A stretch of 25,423 nucleotides of DNA from a virus: the IMG/VR virus record IMGVR_UViG_3300028829_004147, positions 1-25,423 of that record. The stretch is one strand, 5' to 3'. Numbering within the stretch: the stretch's first letter is position 1; each line of letters starts with the position of its first letter. The position numbers and the translations under genes were made by a program. This document shows positions 15,458 through 25,181 of the stretch, in pieces. The notes below the pieces were generated by a model. It was given only the letters and a program-made list of their open reading frames with translations. It had not been told where the DNA came from and searched no databases.

Positions 15458-15853
15458 TTACTTAGGATAAATAGCAAAGGTATCGGCGTATTCAGCCAAA
15501 CAATAACCTTGAGCTCTTACATAGCCGTAATGTGTTTTGCTACAACCCCTATACTTAATTCTATAATTGCCAGTCTTCATCATAGTTCTAACCACAGCAT
15601 TCCATCTATACATCATAGGAATACCCTTATATAAAGCTTGTTCAAAGTAAGGAGCTTCATAGTCTTCCAACCTAACAGCCGGTTGATTAGTATTAGCTTC
15701 ATACAATTCCATAGGATTGTGTGCATATTGATAGACATTCATAGTAAATGTCCTATTGTCAAAACCAAAAGCTCTTGGAACTTTCGTATCAGCAAAATCT
15801 CTCATATAAATACCTTCGGTATCAGTTGTAATCGTTTCATTATTTTCAATCAT
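15458..15853 (-). CDS. Unknown 131-aa protein on the opposite strand
   Basis: On the minus strand the start is ATG at 15853-15851, with AAAGGA 7 nt upstream. The frame opens eight codons further, but that start lacks an SD. The 131-residue product begins MIENNETITTDTEGIYMRDF and includes VPRAFGFDNRTFTMNVYQYA, GIPMMYRWNAVVRTMMKTGN and two cysteines near the C-terminus (YRGCSKTH and GYCLAEY). It is rich in Tyr and aromatic residues, with no membrane segment. I do not recognise it. A TTGACA-17-TATATT promoter stands upstream. It interrupts the sheath-tube order on the opposite strand, so it looks like inserted cargo, probably expressed early (inference). Confidence 0.75.
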   Translation of the reverse strand: MIENNETITTDTEGIYMRDFADTKVPRAFGFDNRTFTMNVYQYAHNPMELYEANTNQPAVRLEDYEAPYFEQALYKGIPMMYRWNAVVRTMMKTGNYRIKYRGCSKTHYGYVRAQGYCLAEYADTFAIYPK

Positions 15854-15885
15854 TTCGTTTTCCTTTATCATTATCATAACACTAT

Positions 15886-20042: not shown

Positions 20043-21536
20043 ATGGCATTAATAGAATTAAAATCAAATCTATCAAGTAAAGGTAAAACCGTTGATTACT
20101 TTGATAATGAGAATCAAACAGGATTCACATCAGGTAGAGAACAAGGTGATTCTACTGAATTTAACAGACCGGTAAATTCATTGTTCTCAACCAAAGGAAA
20201 GGTTGTGGATTACTTTGATAATAAGAATCAAACAGGATTTACACCAAATAGACAACCAGGTGATTCTACTGAATTTAAAGAACCAGCTAAGTCATTATTC
20301 AATGATAATATAGGTGGAACCAACACTACTGAAACTGGGACTTTTAGTGTCAATCAAAGAGATAACACAGAAAGAAAAACTCAATTTACAGATAACCAAG
20401 TAAATGCACAACACAAAAAATTTAAACCAGACGACGACCAACTAATCACACACGACATAGGTGACAAATATAAAGGAACAAGTAAAGATGGTGGTTTTGT
20501 TCGTGGTGGTTTTGTATTGAATACCGATAGACAAATAGAGGACGCAAAAAGACTAACTAAATTTTTAGCAACACCAAAAGGATTTTTATTCAAAGAAAAA
20601 CAATCGGTTTTACAAAAGAAAAATGCAAGACCAGAAACACGGGAATATGATAGAACATCAATTATTAGAAATATAGACTCCGTAACTGAAGTTCTTAATG
20701 GAGATGTATCAGAAGCAGGACAAAATCGTCATACTGGTAATAATTATGAAAATAATCCACAGACTTTTCAAGGAAAAGTAAATTCAGCAGCAGTTTCTTA
20801 CTTTTCAACCACACAAAATGTAGGAGTATCAGGTAGTAAAAAACTTCAAGTTTTATATGGTGGTGAATTTGGTTCAATAAATAAAGTTCCAGGTTCTACA
20901 ATAAACGATAAAAAAGAAACAACACTTGATACCAAAGGTTCAGATGACTTTATTAAATTTAAAATCCGAGATGCAGTCAATGGTAAATGGATTATATTTC
21001 CAGCATTGATTACAGGTATTACGGATAATTCACAAGCGAGTTACAACAAAATACAATACATAGGAAGACCAGATTCAGTTCACGTTTATCAAAACTTTAA
21101 TCGTAGTATTTCATTTAGTTTAAAAGTATTAGCTACGAACGAAAATGAATTAGGTATAGTGTGGCAAAAAGTAAGTGCATTAAAAGGTTTAACACAACCT
21201 TCATTTAAACCATTTTTCTATGAAAATAATGATAGTAGAGTGGGAGAAAAATTTACAAGACCAACAGCACCCTATGTCTACTTAACTATTGGTGATATGT
21301 TTAAAAACACACCAGGTTATTTTGAATCAGTCAATGTAACGATTCCTGAAGCTTCATCTTGGGAAATCATAGACGGAGCACAATTTCCACATATGTGTGA
21401 TATAAGTTGCACTTTCCAATACATTGGAAGAGAATTACCATCAACACGAAGTCTTAATTATGATGGACTTAAAGAGGGTATTCGTGGACAAAATAAATTA
21501 ATAAAAGACAAAATACCAACAGCTGAATTTGTATAG
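20043..21536 (+). CDS. 48/54: Baseplate / tail tube cap protein, gp48/gp54-like
   Basis: ATG 20043 lies 4 nt after the tape measure stop. The 497-residue product has a C-terminal core that fits T4 gp48/gp54-type tube-initiator proteins: KWIIFPALITGITDNSQASY, NKIQYIGRPDSVHVYQNFNR, SISFSLKVLATNENELGIVW, then APYVYLTIGDMFKNTPGYFE and CDISCTFQYIGRELPSTRSL. This cap sits on the hub and nucleates the tube. The first 90 residues hold two tandem 36-residue repeats (13-48 and 51-86) with KGKxVDYFDNxNQTGFT. The middle (90-260) is polar and Gln/Asn-rich, without recognised domains. The N-terminal part is an addition relative to T4 proteins of 320-364 aa. Confidence 0.75.
   Translation: MALIELKSNLSSKGKTVDYFDNENQTGFTSGREQGDSTEFNRPVNSLFSTKGKVVDYFDNKNQTGFTPNRQPGDSTEFKEPAKSLFNDNIGGTNTTETGTFSVNQRDNTERKTQFTDNQVNAQHKKFKPDDDQLITHDIGDKYKGTSKDGGFVRGGFVLNTDRQIEDAKRLTKFLATPKGFLFKEKQSVLQKKNARPETREYDRTSIIRNIDSVTEVLNGDVSEAGQNRHTGNNYENNPQTFQGKVNSAAVSYFSTTQNVGVSGSKKLQVLYGGEFGSINKVPGSTINDKKETTLDTKGSDDFIKFKIRDAVNGKWIIFPALITGITDNSQASYNKIQYIGRPDSVHVYQNFNRSISFSLKVLATNENELGIVWQKVSALKGLTQPSFKPFFYENNDSRVGEKFTRPTAPYVYLTIGDMFKNTPGYFESVNVTIPEASSWEIIDGAQFPHMCDISCTFQYIGRELPSTRSLNYDGLKEGIRGQNKLIKDKIPTAEFV
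20079..20300 (+). repeat. Tandem 114-nt coding repeat
   Basis: Two in-frame copies at 20079-20186 and 20193-20300 (period 114 nt, 38 residues) encode KGK[TV]VDYFDN[EK]NQTGFT, then GDSTEF and SLF. The high similarity indicates a fairly recent internal duplication. Confidence 0.9.
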
Positions 21537-21544
21537 GAGTTACA

Positions 21545-21850
21545 ATGTCAAGATACGATAATCAAACAATTTTAAAAGATGAAAACGGAACAAGATATTT
21601 AGGTCAAACTCAGTATCCTAAAATCCCCATTAGAGATTCTGATATTTTTATTCAAGGACAATATGGTAAAAGGTTGGATAGTTTAGCTTATGATTATTAT
21701 GGTGATGTTCAATTGTGGTGGGTAATCGCTAAGTCAAATCCAGAAAATCAATCCAATGGTAGTTCTATGTATATGAACCCAAATAAACAATATAGAATAC
21801 CTACCAGTATTGGTCAGATATTAGCTGACTATGAGGCTTTGAACGACTAA
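21545..21850 (+). CDS. 53: Baseplate wedge protein with LysM-like domain, gp53-like
   Basis: ATG 21545 has AGGAG at 21535-21539, overlapping the previous stop. The 101-residue product includes YGKRLDSLAYDYYGDVQLWW followed by VIAKSNPENQ, and later QYRIPTSIGQILADYEAL. The D-x-LAYxxYGDxQLWWVIAxxN pattern matches the LysM-like fold of T4 gp53 and P2 gpX-type baseplate proteins, which hold wedge components together. It is about half the length of T4 gp53 (196 aa), keeping mainly that domain. Its stop overlaps the next ATG by 1 nt, so it is coupled to the hub gene. Confidence 0.75.
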   Translation: MSRYDNQTILKDENGTRYLGQTQYPKIPIRDSDIFIQGQYGKRLDSLAYDYYGDVQLWWVIAKSNPENQSNGSSMYMNPNKQYRIPTSIGQILADYEALND

Positions 21851-22830
21851 TGAGTGCTTTTGAAGCAAAACACATCAAACCAAGTGTTAAAAGAGCAATC
21901 TTTAAAAAAATAGAGGCACTTAACAAAGTAGGGCTTACCGACGATAATCCAACTTTGAACCCAAATCGTGATACTAAAAACTCAATACCAAGTTTTGATA
22001 CTTCAGCATTGGAACCAAGAAGTAATAGAGATGGTTTAGAACAAACTAATGCACTTTCATATCAATTGGTTCGTAATACTTTCGTCAGACTAAGTGTGGA
22101 TATACCACTTGAGAATGAAGAAGGTGAAACATCAACTGGAGTATTAAATTTTGCAAGTTATATTAAACCAACGGAGTCTGAAAATAGACTCGGAACTAAA
22201 ATTCAAACAAACACACCATTAGCTTTTAATAAAAGTCCTTTCACCAATGATAAAAAATTTATATGGAGAGGACATACTGGAATTACGAGTGTGTCAGTTA
22301 CACAGAAAACATTTTTCATTAAAGAAATTCAAGTAGGTTGGGAGTGTCCAGACCCAATAGATTTTGAAGAAAGAGTATTACCTTTCTTTTTACAACACGG
22401 AAGACTTATGGTAGTGGAATTTGGTTGGGGACTTGATAGTGATTTAGGAAATTTAAAAGTTCCACCATTGACAAAAAACAATATGAATAAGTTTTTGAAA
22501 AACTTACAAGAGAGAAATAACAAATCAGTAGATTCATATCAAGCGGAGGCAGGAGTTGTAACATCATATAATTATAGTATTACAGACGAAGGTGGATACA
22601 AAGGAACTTTAAAAATTACTTCAAGAGGAGAAAATCCACTCTATACACCAATTCCAAATCTTGATGATACAGAAGAACCAAACCCATATGTAAAGTCATA
22701 TACAAGAAGCACTGGTAGTCTATCAGTCGAACGAGCAGTTAACCAAACCATAACATTTCGTGCAACGATTAATAATTTAGAAGACTTCATTACTGATTAT
22801 TTGAAGAAGACTTCATTACTGATTATTTGA
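21850..22830 (+). CDS. N-terminal part of a split large baseplate hub-like protein
   Basis: ATG 21850 overlaps the previous stop. The 326-residue product includes TFFIKEIQVGWECPDPIDFE, then VLPFFLQHGRLMVVEFGWGL, and YNYSITDEGGYKGTLKITSR with GENPLY. This is a pattern I associate with gp27/VgrG-like hub proteins of environmental phages. It ends EDFITDYLKKTSLLII at TGA 22828-22830. The ending is caused by a 26-bp tandem duplication (22780-22831). Removing one copy joins it in frame to the next ORF, giving one protein of about 1,101 residues. Confidence 0.75.
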   Translation: MSAFEAKHIKPSVKRAIFKKIEALNKVGLTDDNPTLNPNRDTKNSIPSFDTSALEPRSNRDGLEQTNALSYQLVRNTFVRLSVDIPLENEEGETSTGVLNFASYIKPTESENRLGTKIQTNTPLAFNKSPFTNDKKFIWRGHTGITSVSVTQKTFFIKEIQVGWECPDPIDFEERVLPFFLQHGRLMVVEFGWGLDSDLGNLKVPPLTKNNMNKFLKNLQERNNKSVDSYQAEAGVVTSYNYSITDEGGYKGTLKITSRGENPLYTPIPNLDDTEEPNPYVKSYTRSTGSLSVERAVNQTITFRATINNLEDFITDYLKKTSLLII

Positions 22831-22831
22831 A
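22780..22831 (+). repeat. 26-bp perfect tandem duplication, frame-breaking
   Basis: The two copies occupy 22780-22805 and 22806-22831; each begins GAAGACTTCATTACTG and ends in TTATTTGAA. 26 is not a multiple of three, so the second copy shifts the frame and creates the TGA at 22828. The second copy in turn creates the TTGA start/stop overlap. Confidence 0.95.
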
Positions 22832-25181
22832 CGAACCAAACTCAGAAGGTATACGCACTAACACCCTTTCCGAAAAACGAGTTGACTTGGTAGGACAAAG
22901 TAAACAAGATAGTCGGAAAAACCGAGGATTCAGAATACAACATATCTTTAAAAAAGGTGCACTATCAACCAACTTTAAATACATAATAGGTTCCGATGCT
23001 GGTGGTAGAAGAGAAGCAGGTACGGGAACCTCGAGTAAATTGTTACCAAAATTAGAAAGTTCAAATAATCTATATTGTAGTTGGGGTTGGTTTGAAGATG
23101 TGATTTTAAATTCATTTTTTAAAATAGATATCATCGATGACAATGACGGGAAATTTCCATTTCAAGAAATAAGAAGTGTTCACTCACCTTATAGATATGA
23201 ACTAAACAAAACTGAACTTGACAAAGTAAGCTTTAAAGCTTTCAATGATAGTGAACCTACACCAACAGACATAATTGATAGTAAAGAATTATTTTCAAAT
23301 CGTTGTAATAACAATCCAAATTTATATTCATTAGGATTTGATGATATTATTCTACCAGGACAATATTATAACATAGCTGGTAATACAAGAAATACCATAG
23401 AAAAAGATTTAAAAAAAGGTGTTCGTCCAGATGAAAAAAGTAGTGGAAATATTAAATTAAAAAGAAAAGATAAAATAGATTTAAATAAAAGATTAAACCA
23501 AATAATTTATTTTGAAAAACTTTCTGAACTCATTGATGAGAAATTTAAACCATTCGGTAAACCAAATGAATATTATGGTAATATAAGAAATATGGTATTT
23601 TCAGTAGATTATTTAAAAAGTCATTTTGAAAATATAAATTCCGTAGAAGAAGGATTGAGAAGTTTATGGTCAGATGTATCTTCAAAATATGGTGGATTTT
23701 TTAACTTTACAATATATCCAGATGAAAAAAATAACGGAACCATTGGTATCAATGACCAATACTATATGAATCCAATAGAAAGAGATGAGGGATTATTAGA
23801 TGAATCAAACGTAATAAATTACGAAAAATACATTGAGGGTAAAAAATCTTTGTCAAATCCAAATGATATGATGCAATTTAGTGTTTTTTCAAAAGATAGT
23901 ATTATATCATCATACGATTTAAATTTACAACTAACAAAAGAAGCCGCAACATTAGCATTGTATGGTGGACAACAAAAACTTGCAAATGGTAATTTTACAA
24001 ACTCATCAACAATATACGATAAAGGAATAGAGGGATATACTGCATTACAAAATGCAATTATTCCTGACTTTAAAAAATCAAATAAAAACTTAAAGTTAGG
24101 AAAAGACAAAAGAATTGTAGACCCAATTGTTATTAAAGAGTTTTCAACACCAATTACAGATGATGGAGTGGGATTAGATTTAGTAGATTACAACAAAGAC
24201 TCAAATTTTATTAGTGAACCAACAGGTTCAGTTTCTCTTGGATTTAAAGATGTATTTTCTATAAGTAAAGATTTTAAAAAACTTAAAGATGAGGTAGAAA
24301 AAAAACTAAAAGAAAGTAAAGAACTATCTGAGGGAGAGTCAGCTGACGAAAGTGCTCCAGAACCAACATCATTAGATTTGGCATACCCATTAAATTATGA
24401 TAATAATGGTGGTTTAAGTGATGAATCAACGAAAAGATTTTTATCAAAATTAAATCACTCTAATTATTTAGGTGATAAATCCAATTGGACAATACAAAAA
24501 ACGATTATACCGATTGATTTAGATTTAACGATTGATGGAATAGGTGGTTTAGTGCCGGGTAATTTATTCAGAATAGACTTTTTACCTGAAACTTATCGTA
24601 AATATACATACTTTATAATAATGTCAATCAATCATTCAATCACTACTTCTGGTTGGTCCACATCAATTAATGCAAAAATGAAATTAGACTTTCCAAAAAT
24701 GATTAAAGATAAGTTAGTTGTAACTGAAGTGGGAACATCAGAACCAAAAACAACAATAGAAAGTTCGGAACCAATTAATCCAAATATATCTTCAGATGTT
24801 CTTAAAGAAAATGAAACTCAAATAACTGCAGTAGGTGGTATAACTGAATCATCATCAGTTCCAGCAAATTCATATAGAGTTCCAGACGAAGCTGCTGGTT
24901 TAACATTAAGAGAGGCTACAGATGAAGGGATTATATCTGCAGAACAATTAGACAAAATAGACAAACTTAGAAAATTCCATAGAAAATTAAGAAAGCGTTA
25001 CAATATTCCTTTCAATGTTGTATTTATAAAAAGAACTATTGAGGGGGAAACCTATTACGACGCACTACCAGGACCTGGATTTTCAACGGATTGGGAAAAG
25101 TCAGGACAGGTTAGATATCTTGAAGGTGAAAGAGTTGTTCCCCCAAGTAACGCTGGTGGAGGTGGAGGCGGAGCCGGATAA
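22827..25181 (+). CDS. C-terminal part of the split large baseplate hub-like protein
   Basis: The frame opens at TTG 22827, overlapping the upstream stop (TTGA), without an SD; it could be reached by re-initiation. It reads NEPNSEGIRTNTLSEKRVDL onward for 784 codons. It contains NLYCSWGWFEDVILNSFFKI and a region at about 566-625 with LTIDGIGGLVPGNLFRIDFL, YFIIMSINHSITTSGWSTSI, a pattern typical of phage hub/gp27-like domains. It closes with a helical segment (EQLDKIDKLRKFHRKLRKRY) and a glycine-rich tail GGGGGGAG. It was very probably part of one gene with the preceding ORF. The hub anchors the central spike and caps the baseplate centre. Confidence 0.75.
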   Translation: MNEPNSEGIRTNTLSEKRVDLVGQSKQDSRKNRGFRIQHIFKKGALSTNFKYIIGSDAGGRREAGTGTSSKLLPKLESSNNLYCSWGWFEDVILNSFFKIDIIDDNDGKFPFQEIRSVHSPYRYELNKTELDKVSFKAFNDSEPTPTDIIDSKELFSNRCNNNPNLYSLGFDDIILPGQYYNIAGNTRNTIEKDLKKGVRPDEKSSGNIKLKRKDKIDLNKRLNQIIYFEKLSELIDEKFKPFGKPNEYYGNIRNMVFSVDYLKSHFENINSVEEGLRSLWSDVSSKYGGFFNFTIYPDEKNNGTIGINDQYYMNPIERDEGLLDESNVINYEKYIEGKKSLSNPNDMMQFSVFSKDSIISSYDLNLQLTKEAATLALYGGQQKLANGNFTNSSTIYDKGIEGYTALQNAIIPDFKKSNKNLKLGKDKRIVDPIVIKEFSTPITDDGVGLDLVDYNKDSNFISEPTGSVSLGFKDVFSISKDFKKLKDEVEKKLKESKELSEGESADESAPEPTSLDLAYPLNYDNNGGLSDESTKRFLSKLNHSNYLGDKSNWTIQKTIIPIDLDLTIDGIGGLVPGNLFRIDFLPETYRKYTYFIIMSINHSITTSGWSTSINAKMKLDFPKMIKDKLVVTEVGTSEPKTTIESSEPINPNISSDVLKENETQITAVGGITESSSVPANSYRVPDEAAGLTLREATDEGIISAEQLDKIDKLRKFHRKLRKRYNIPFNVVFIKRTIEGETYYDALPGPGFSTDWEKSGQVRYLEGERVVPPSNAGGGGGGAG

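Follow-up and report, generated by a model that had tools for sequence, protein, structure and literature searches.

Is the putative baseplate hub of this virus encoded by two genes, or by one gene that has been broken by a short duplication? The window, that is, the whole stretch of DNA analysed here, is a linear virus record of 25,423 bp with T4-like tailed phage genes. It contains genes for a gp23-type capsid protein (PF07068), a tail sheath (profile match), a T4 baseplate protein (Pfam match), and a gp19-like tube, whose match is below Pfam's cut-off. A presumed tape-measure gene is located ahead of a gp53-like baseplate wedge gene. The gp53-like gene is at 21545..21850 on the plus strand (PHROG 7145, E 7.8e-15), and it precedes the hub gene also in the relatives. 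The locus in question begins directly behind it and is read as two overlapping open reading frames (ORFs).

Two further observations concern the genes upstream. An ORF for 139 aa is situated on the opposite strand (15458-15877, minus) between the sheath and tube genes. It has no Pfam match, and it is 57-69% conserved in four related contigs (L011, L012, L020, and L043) and partly in L022. This conservation shows that it is a real gene. The 497-aa protein encoded upstream of gp53 contains an in-frame tandem repeat of ~114 bp (VDYFDN..TKGK; 20094-20300, plus). The same repeat is present in the corresponding protein of L003 and absent from that of L005.

The 26-bp duplication and the frame break

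The 26-bp unit AGAAGACTTCATTACTGATTATTTGA stands at 22779-22804 on the plus strand and is repeated perfectly at 22805-22830. The two perfect adjacent copies reported in the initial annotation are thus confirmed. The identity between the copies extends one base further, to 22831, which corresponds to 27 matching offsets at period 26. At periods 4-300, no other perfect tandem run in the window reaches 10 matches. Five Markov-shuffled copies, analysed at periods up to 60, showed at most 10 matches, against the 27 observed, and a chance origin of the repeat is excluded.

Read in the frame of the first ORF, the first copy encodes ..EDFITDYL, a peptide also present in the homologue L003. The second, identical copy shifts the frame, since 26 is 2 modulo 3, and the first ORF thus ends with KKTSLLII and a stop codon. 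This out-of-frame tail is simply the translated second copy. The first ORF, which represents the N-terminal part of the hub gene, occupies 21850..22830 (plus strand) and encodes 326 aa as read, of which the first 318 are homologous to the relatives. Its TGA stop at 22828..22830 overlaps the TTG start of the second ORF at 22827-22829 as TTGA. The second ORF, the C-terminal part of the hub gene, occupies 22827..25181 (plus strand) and encodes 784 aa from the TTG, with no further stop inside. Upstream of the TTG, its frame stays open as far back as 22797, with the reading EDFITDYLNEPNSEG, which includes the peptide EDFITDYLNEP.

These coordinates agree with the initial annotation, in which the first part ended with LKKTSLLII and the second started at TTG in a TTGA overlap. 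It was also claimed there that the loss of one copy would give a peptide fused across the junction and a rejoined protein of about 1,101 residues. Both statements hold: the frame is open from 22797, and 318 plus 784 residues, less the shared one, give this length. The rejoining of the frame upon the loss of one copy is, by itself, uninformative on the real state of the population.

The gene in related viruses

No match was found among GenBank phages by nucleotide search with the region or by protein searches with each half, and no relative was found in bacterial and archaeal genome contigs. Closer homologues, L003 and L005, were found by protein search of viral contigs. L003 encodes a single ORF of 1,045 aa with one copy of the unit, TINKLEDFITDYLEEPKRKEG, and the matching peptide EDFITDYL. 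The first 318 residues from the window show 75% identity to L003, and residues 37-715 of the second part show 55% identity to residues 365-1010 of L003. L003 is the closest homologue. In L005, a single ORF runs off the contig and comprises 1,093 aa or more.

The comparison with L003 also gives a relative age of the duplication. Four differences from the L003 unit are common to both copies in the window, three of them being synonymous codon changes. The duplication must therefore have arisen after the lineage of the window separated from that of L003. Decay is not apparent, given that the two copies have remained identical and that the second part contains no additional stop.

For a wider comparison, 80 contigs were fetched via the neighbouring tail-tube protein, and all their stop-free frames were searched with profiles of the N-terminal part and the C-terminal domain. 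In 12 of the 12 loci holding both domains, the two domains are in the same stop-free frame, directly downstream of a gp53-like gene. The cultured Flavobacterium phage immuto (Immutovirus) is among the 12. Only in the window are the domains in different frames, compared with the 12 loci in which both ends were recognised. A conserved two-gene boundary of a split hub is rejected, as none of the 12 homologous loci is split there. The exact junction pattern was not found in the other viral contigs searched. None of the other genes common to the window and its relatives is broken.

The claim that one gene has been split in two is supported by the continuous ORFs of L003 and L005 and by the 12 loci holding both domains, each of which has them in a single frame. 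The homologues were also inspected for a shared two-protein boundary and for a general absence of the second frame; neither pattern was seen, and the split-gene reading stands. On this comparison, the ancestral hub gene was continuous.

Origin of the break and alternative readings

The following explanation is preferred. The virus lineage would have a single long baseplate-hub gene of about 1,100 codons, and in this one record the perfect 26-bp tandem duplication, whose length is not a multiple of three, breaks it into two ORFs. It is highly probable that the frame break is confined to this record and without function, either as a technical product or as a recent mutation that is not fixed. 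Presumably, a hub consisting of its first 326 residues alone would not function, and most of the population carries one copy. A null hub allele is not expected to remain the prevalent form among the phages, which favours a technical or non-fixed origin. The chance of a technical origin, either an assembly join or a library chimera, is put at roughly one half. Alternatively, and with a distinctly smaller share, slippage may have produced a real duplication very recently, without its becoming fixed in the population. Both weightings are a judgement. Two points are counted against the preferred explanation. The flanks of the repeat are clean and otherwise free of signs of poor assembly, and the break borders the least conserved, length-variable linker, where the protein would most readily tolerate a split.

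Frame-breaking repeats are rare in such records, as mutation or artefact alike. In 85 related stretches (891,459 bp), seven perfect tandem arrays with a period of at least 12 were found, and all their periods are multiples of three. Under uniform phase, the probability that seven of seven arrays are in-frame is 0.0005, although five are of low complexity and three of those are in one protein, so that they are non-independent. Perfect in-frame arrays with units of 45-69 bp are observed in coding regions of related phages (L048, 9483-9632; L028, 15075-15190; and L064, 1328-2097), some of them in long proteins. Among the relatives, one frame break was seen in 402 gene-by-locus comparisons. It is in a gp26-like baseplate gene of L078 (~11109) and is apparently a small indel. 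Because L078 shows one, frame breaks do occur at a low rate in these assembled records.

The ends of the repeat share only one base of microhomology, which is at the level of chance (p about 0.28). Thus, the microhomology expected of slippage is missing. An untrimmed join at k = 27 would leave a duplicated overlap of 26 bp (k-1); its application to this record is conjecture. A literature search returned nothing that decides between artefact and mutation.

It is unlikely that the split is real, fixed, and tolerated. If it were, ribosomes terminating at TGA 22828-22830 would restart at the overlapping TTG 22827, and both chains would form a working hub because the break is in a flexible linker. 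The stop-start overlap is present, and the remainder of the second part is intact. The break site is just after a low-confidence predicted helix, bordering the most variable linker, which makes tolerance thinkable; local conservation is within the lowest 16% of the protein at residue 318 and within the lowest 3% at residue 330, 12 residues on. Other genes of the window also start within an overlap, though with ATG (858, 7208, and 21850). However, no Shine-Dalgarno-like site precedes TTG 22827, whereas most genes in the window have one, and the next in-frame ATG of the second ORF is at residue 256. The gene is split in no relative, and the tail of the first ORF has no origin other than the second copy. 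Among the four causes proposed in the initial annotation (slippage, polymorphism, artefact, and re-initiation), re-initiation is the least supported because there is no start signal. A newborn gene fission, in which the virus carries two copies and makes a two-chain hub by re-initiation at TTGA, possibly reversible by copy loss, is harder still to credit. If both copies were real and fixed, this locus would represent a core tail protein that has only recently undergone fission.

Two other readings were considered. One is a reversible switch, where the 26-bp copies are often gained and lost by slippage and a fraction of virions has an intact hub gene. The frame is restored when one copy is lost, and perfect tandem copies can collapse precisely. 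Yet no relative has a repeat at this place, there are two copies only and no repeat array, and the gene is assigned to a hub, not to a receptor-binding protein; such a switch is very improbable. The other is programmed ribosomal frameshifting. The two frames share the interval 22797 to 22830, and they would be joined by a -1 shift. By inspection, no X XXY YYZ slippery heptamer is present in this overlap, and local RNA folding does not stand out (z -1.07). Moreover, the homologues need no shift, and the product would gain extra residues from the second copy. Programmed frameshifting has the slightest chance of the readings considered here and is rejected, as there is no slippery site.

Under the preferred explanation, a single gene broken in this record only, the locus calls for caution in annotation. 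A gene caller would report two proteins at this locus instead of the one typical of the family, and a hub of ~1,100 residues would be hidden. From the homologues, a large family of hubs emerges in T4-like phages; most of it is unannotated, and Immutovirus, whose host is Flavobacterium, provides a cultured relative.

Identity of the gene and comparison with known systems

The gene is located in the tail operon, beside the wedge gene gp53 and after the presumed tape-measure gene, and the same order is seen in the relatives. "Baseplate hub" is a fair label, considering the gp53-like neighbour, a weak fold likeness of the predicted N-terminal part, and the hydrolase ends in some relatives. The initial annotation had called it a baseplate gene, which is supported by the gene order and the weak fold match, without a database family match. 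Searches of Pfam, PHROG, and PDB sequences with both halves and the homologues returned no hub family match. Hub sequences diverge fast, and therefore a missing profile match does not exclude a hub. By analogy with T4 biology, the gene may be considered essential.

The model of the N-terminal part has a mean pLDDT of 50 and is best at residues ~73-267, where a tail-hub beta-barrel is predicted, followed by a low-confidence predicted helix at 290-317. The best structural matches of this low-confidence model are mostly baseplate, hub, or VgrG chains with Z of 5-6.6, values that may reflect a common fold. They include phage 80alpha (Z 6.6), VgrG1 (Z 6.5), the T5 tail tip (Z 6.5), and E217 (Z 6.2). 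Foldseek with the same model found nothing significant. The whole-protein model of the L003 homologue has a mean pLDDT of 34 and was excluded from fold claims.

Some distant homologues have enzymatic ends. The homologue at 3120-6701 of L016 ends in a C-terminal amidase (PF01510), and that at 8935-11751 of L018 (Immutovirus immuto) is annotated as "carboxypeptidase". These two suggest one hub family with swapped wall-hydrolase ends. Hydrolase ends are expected of a wall-piercing tip.

Most likely, the broken hub gene is not a new kind of gene. Short out-of-frame tandem duplications made by slipped-strand or microhomology mutation are alike in having two perfect adjacent copies, a length that is not a multiple of three, and a gene that is otherwise intact. 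The repeat in the window differs from them in the single base of microhomology at its ends, a weak signature of slippage. Unmerged overlaps and chimeric short-read joins are alike in the perfect direct repeat at the join, with identity beyond the 26 bp at chance level. As for the protein, the gene is much longer than that of T4 gp27 and differs also in having no Pfam, PHROG, or PDB sequence match. It resembles the gp27/gp5 or VgrG hub of contractile tails in its gp53-like neighbour and in the weakly matching beta-barrel predicted for the N-terminal part, and the amidase and "carboxypeptidase" ends of some relatives add to this likeness.
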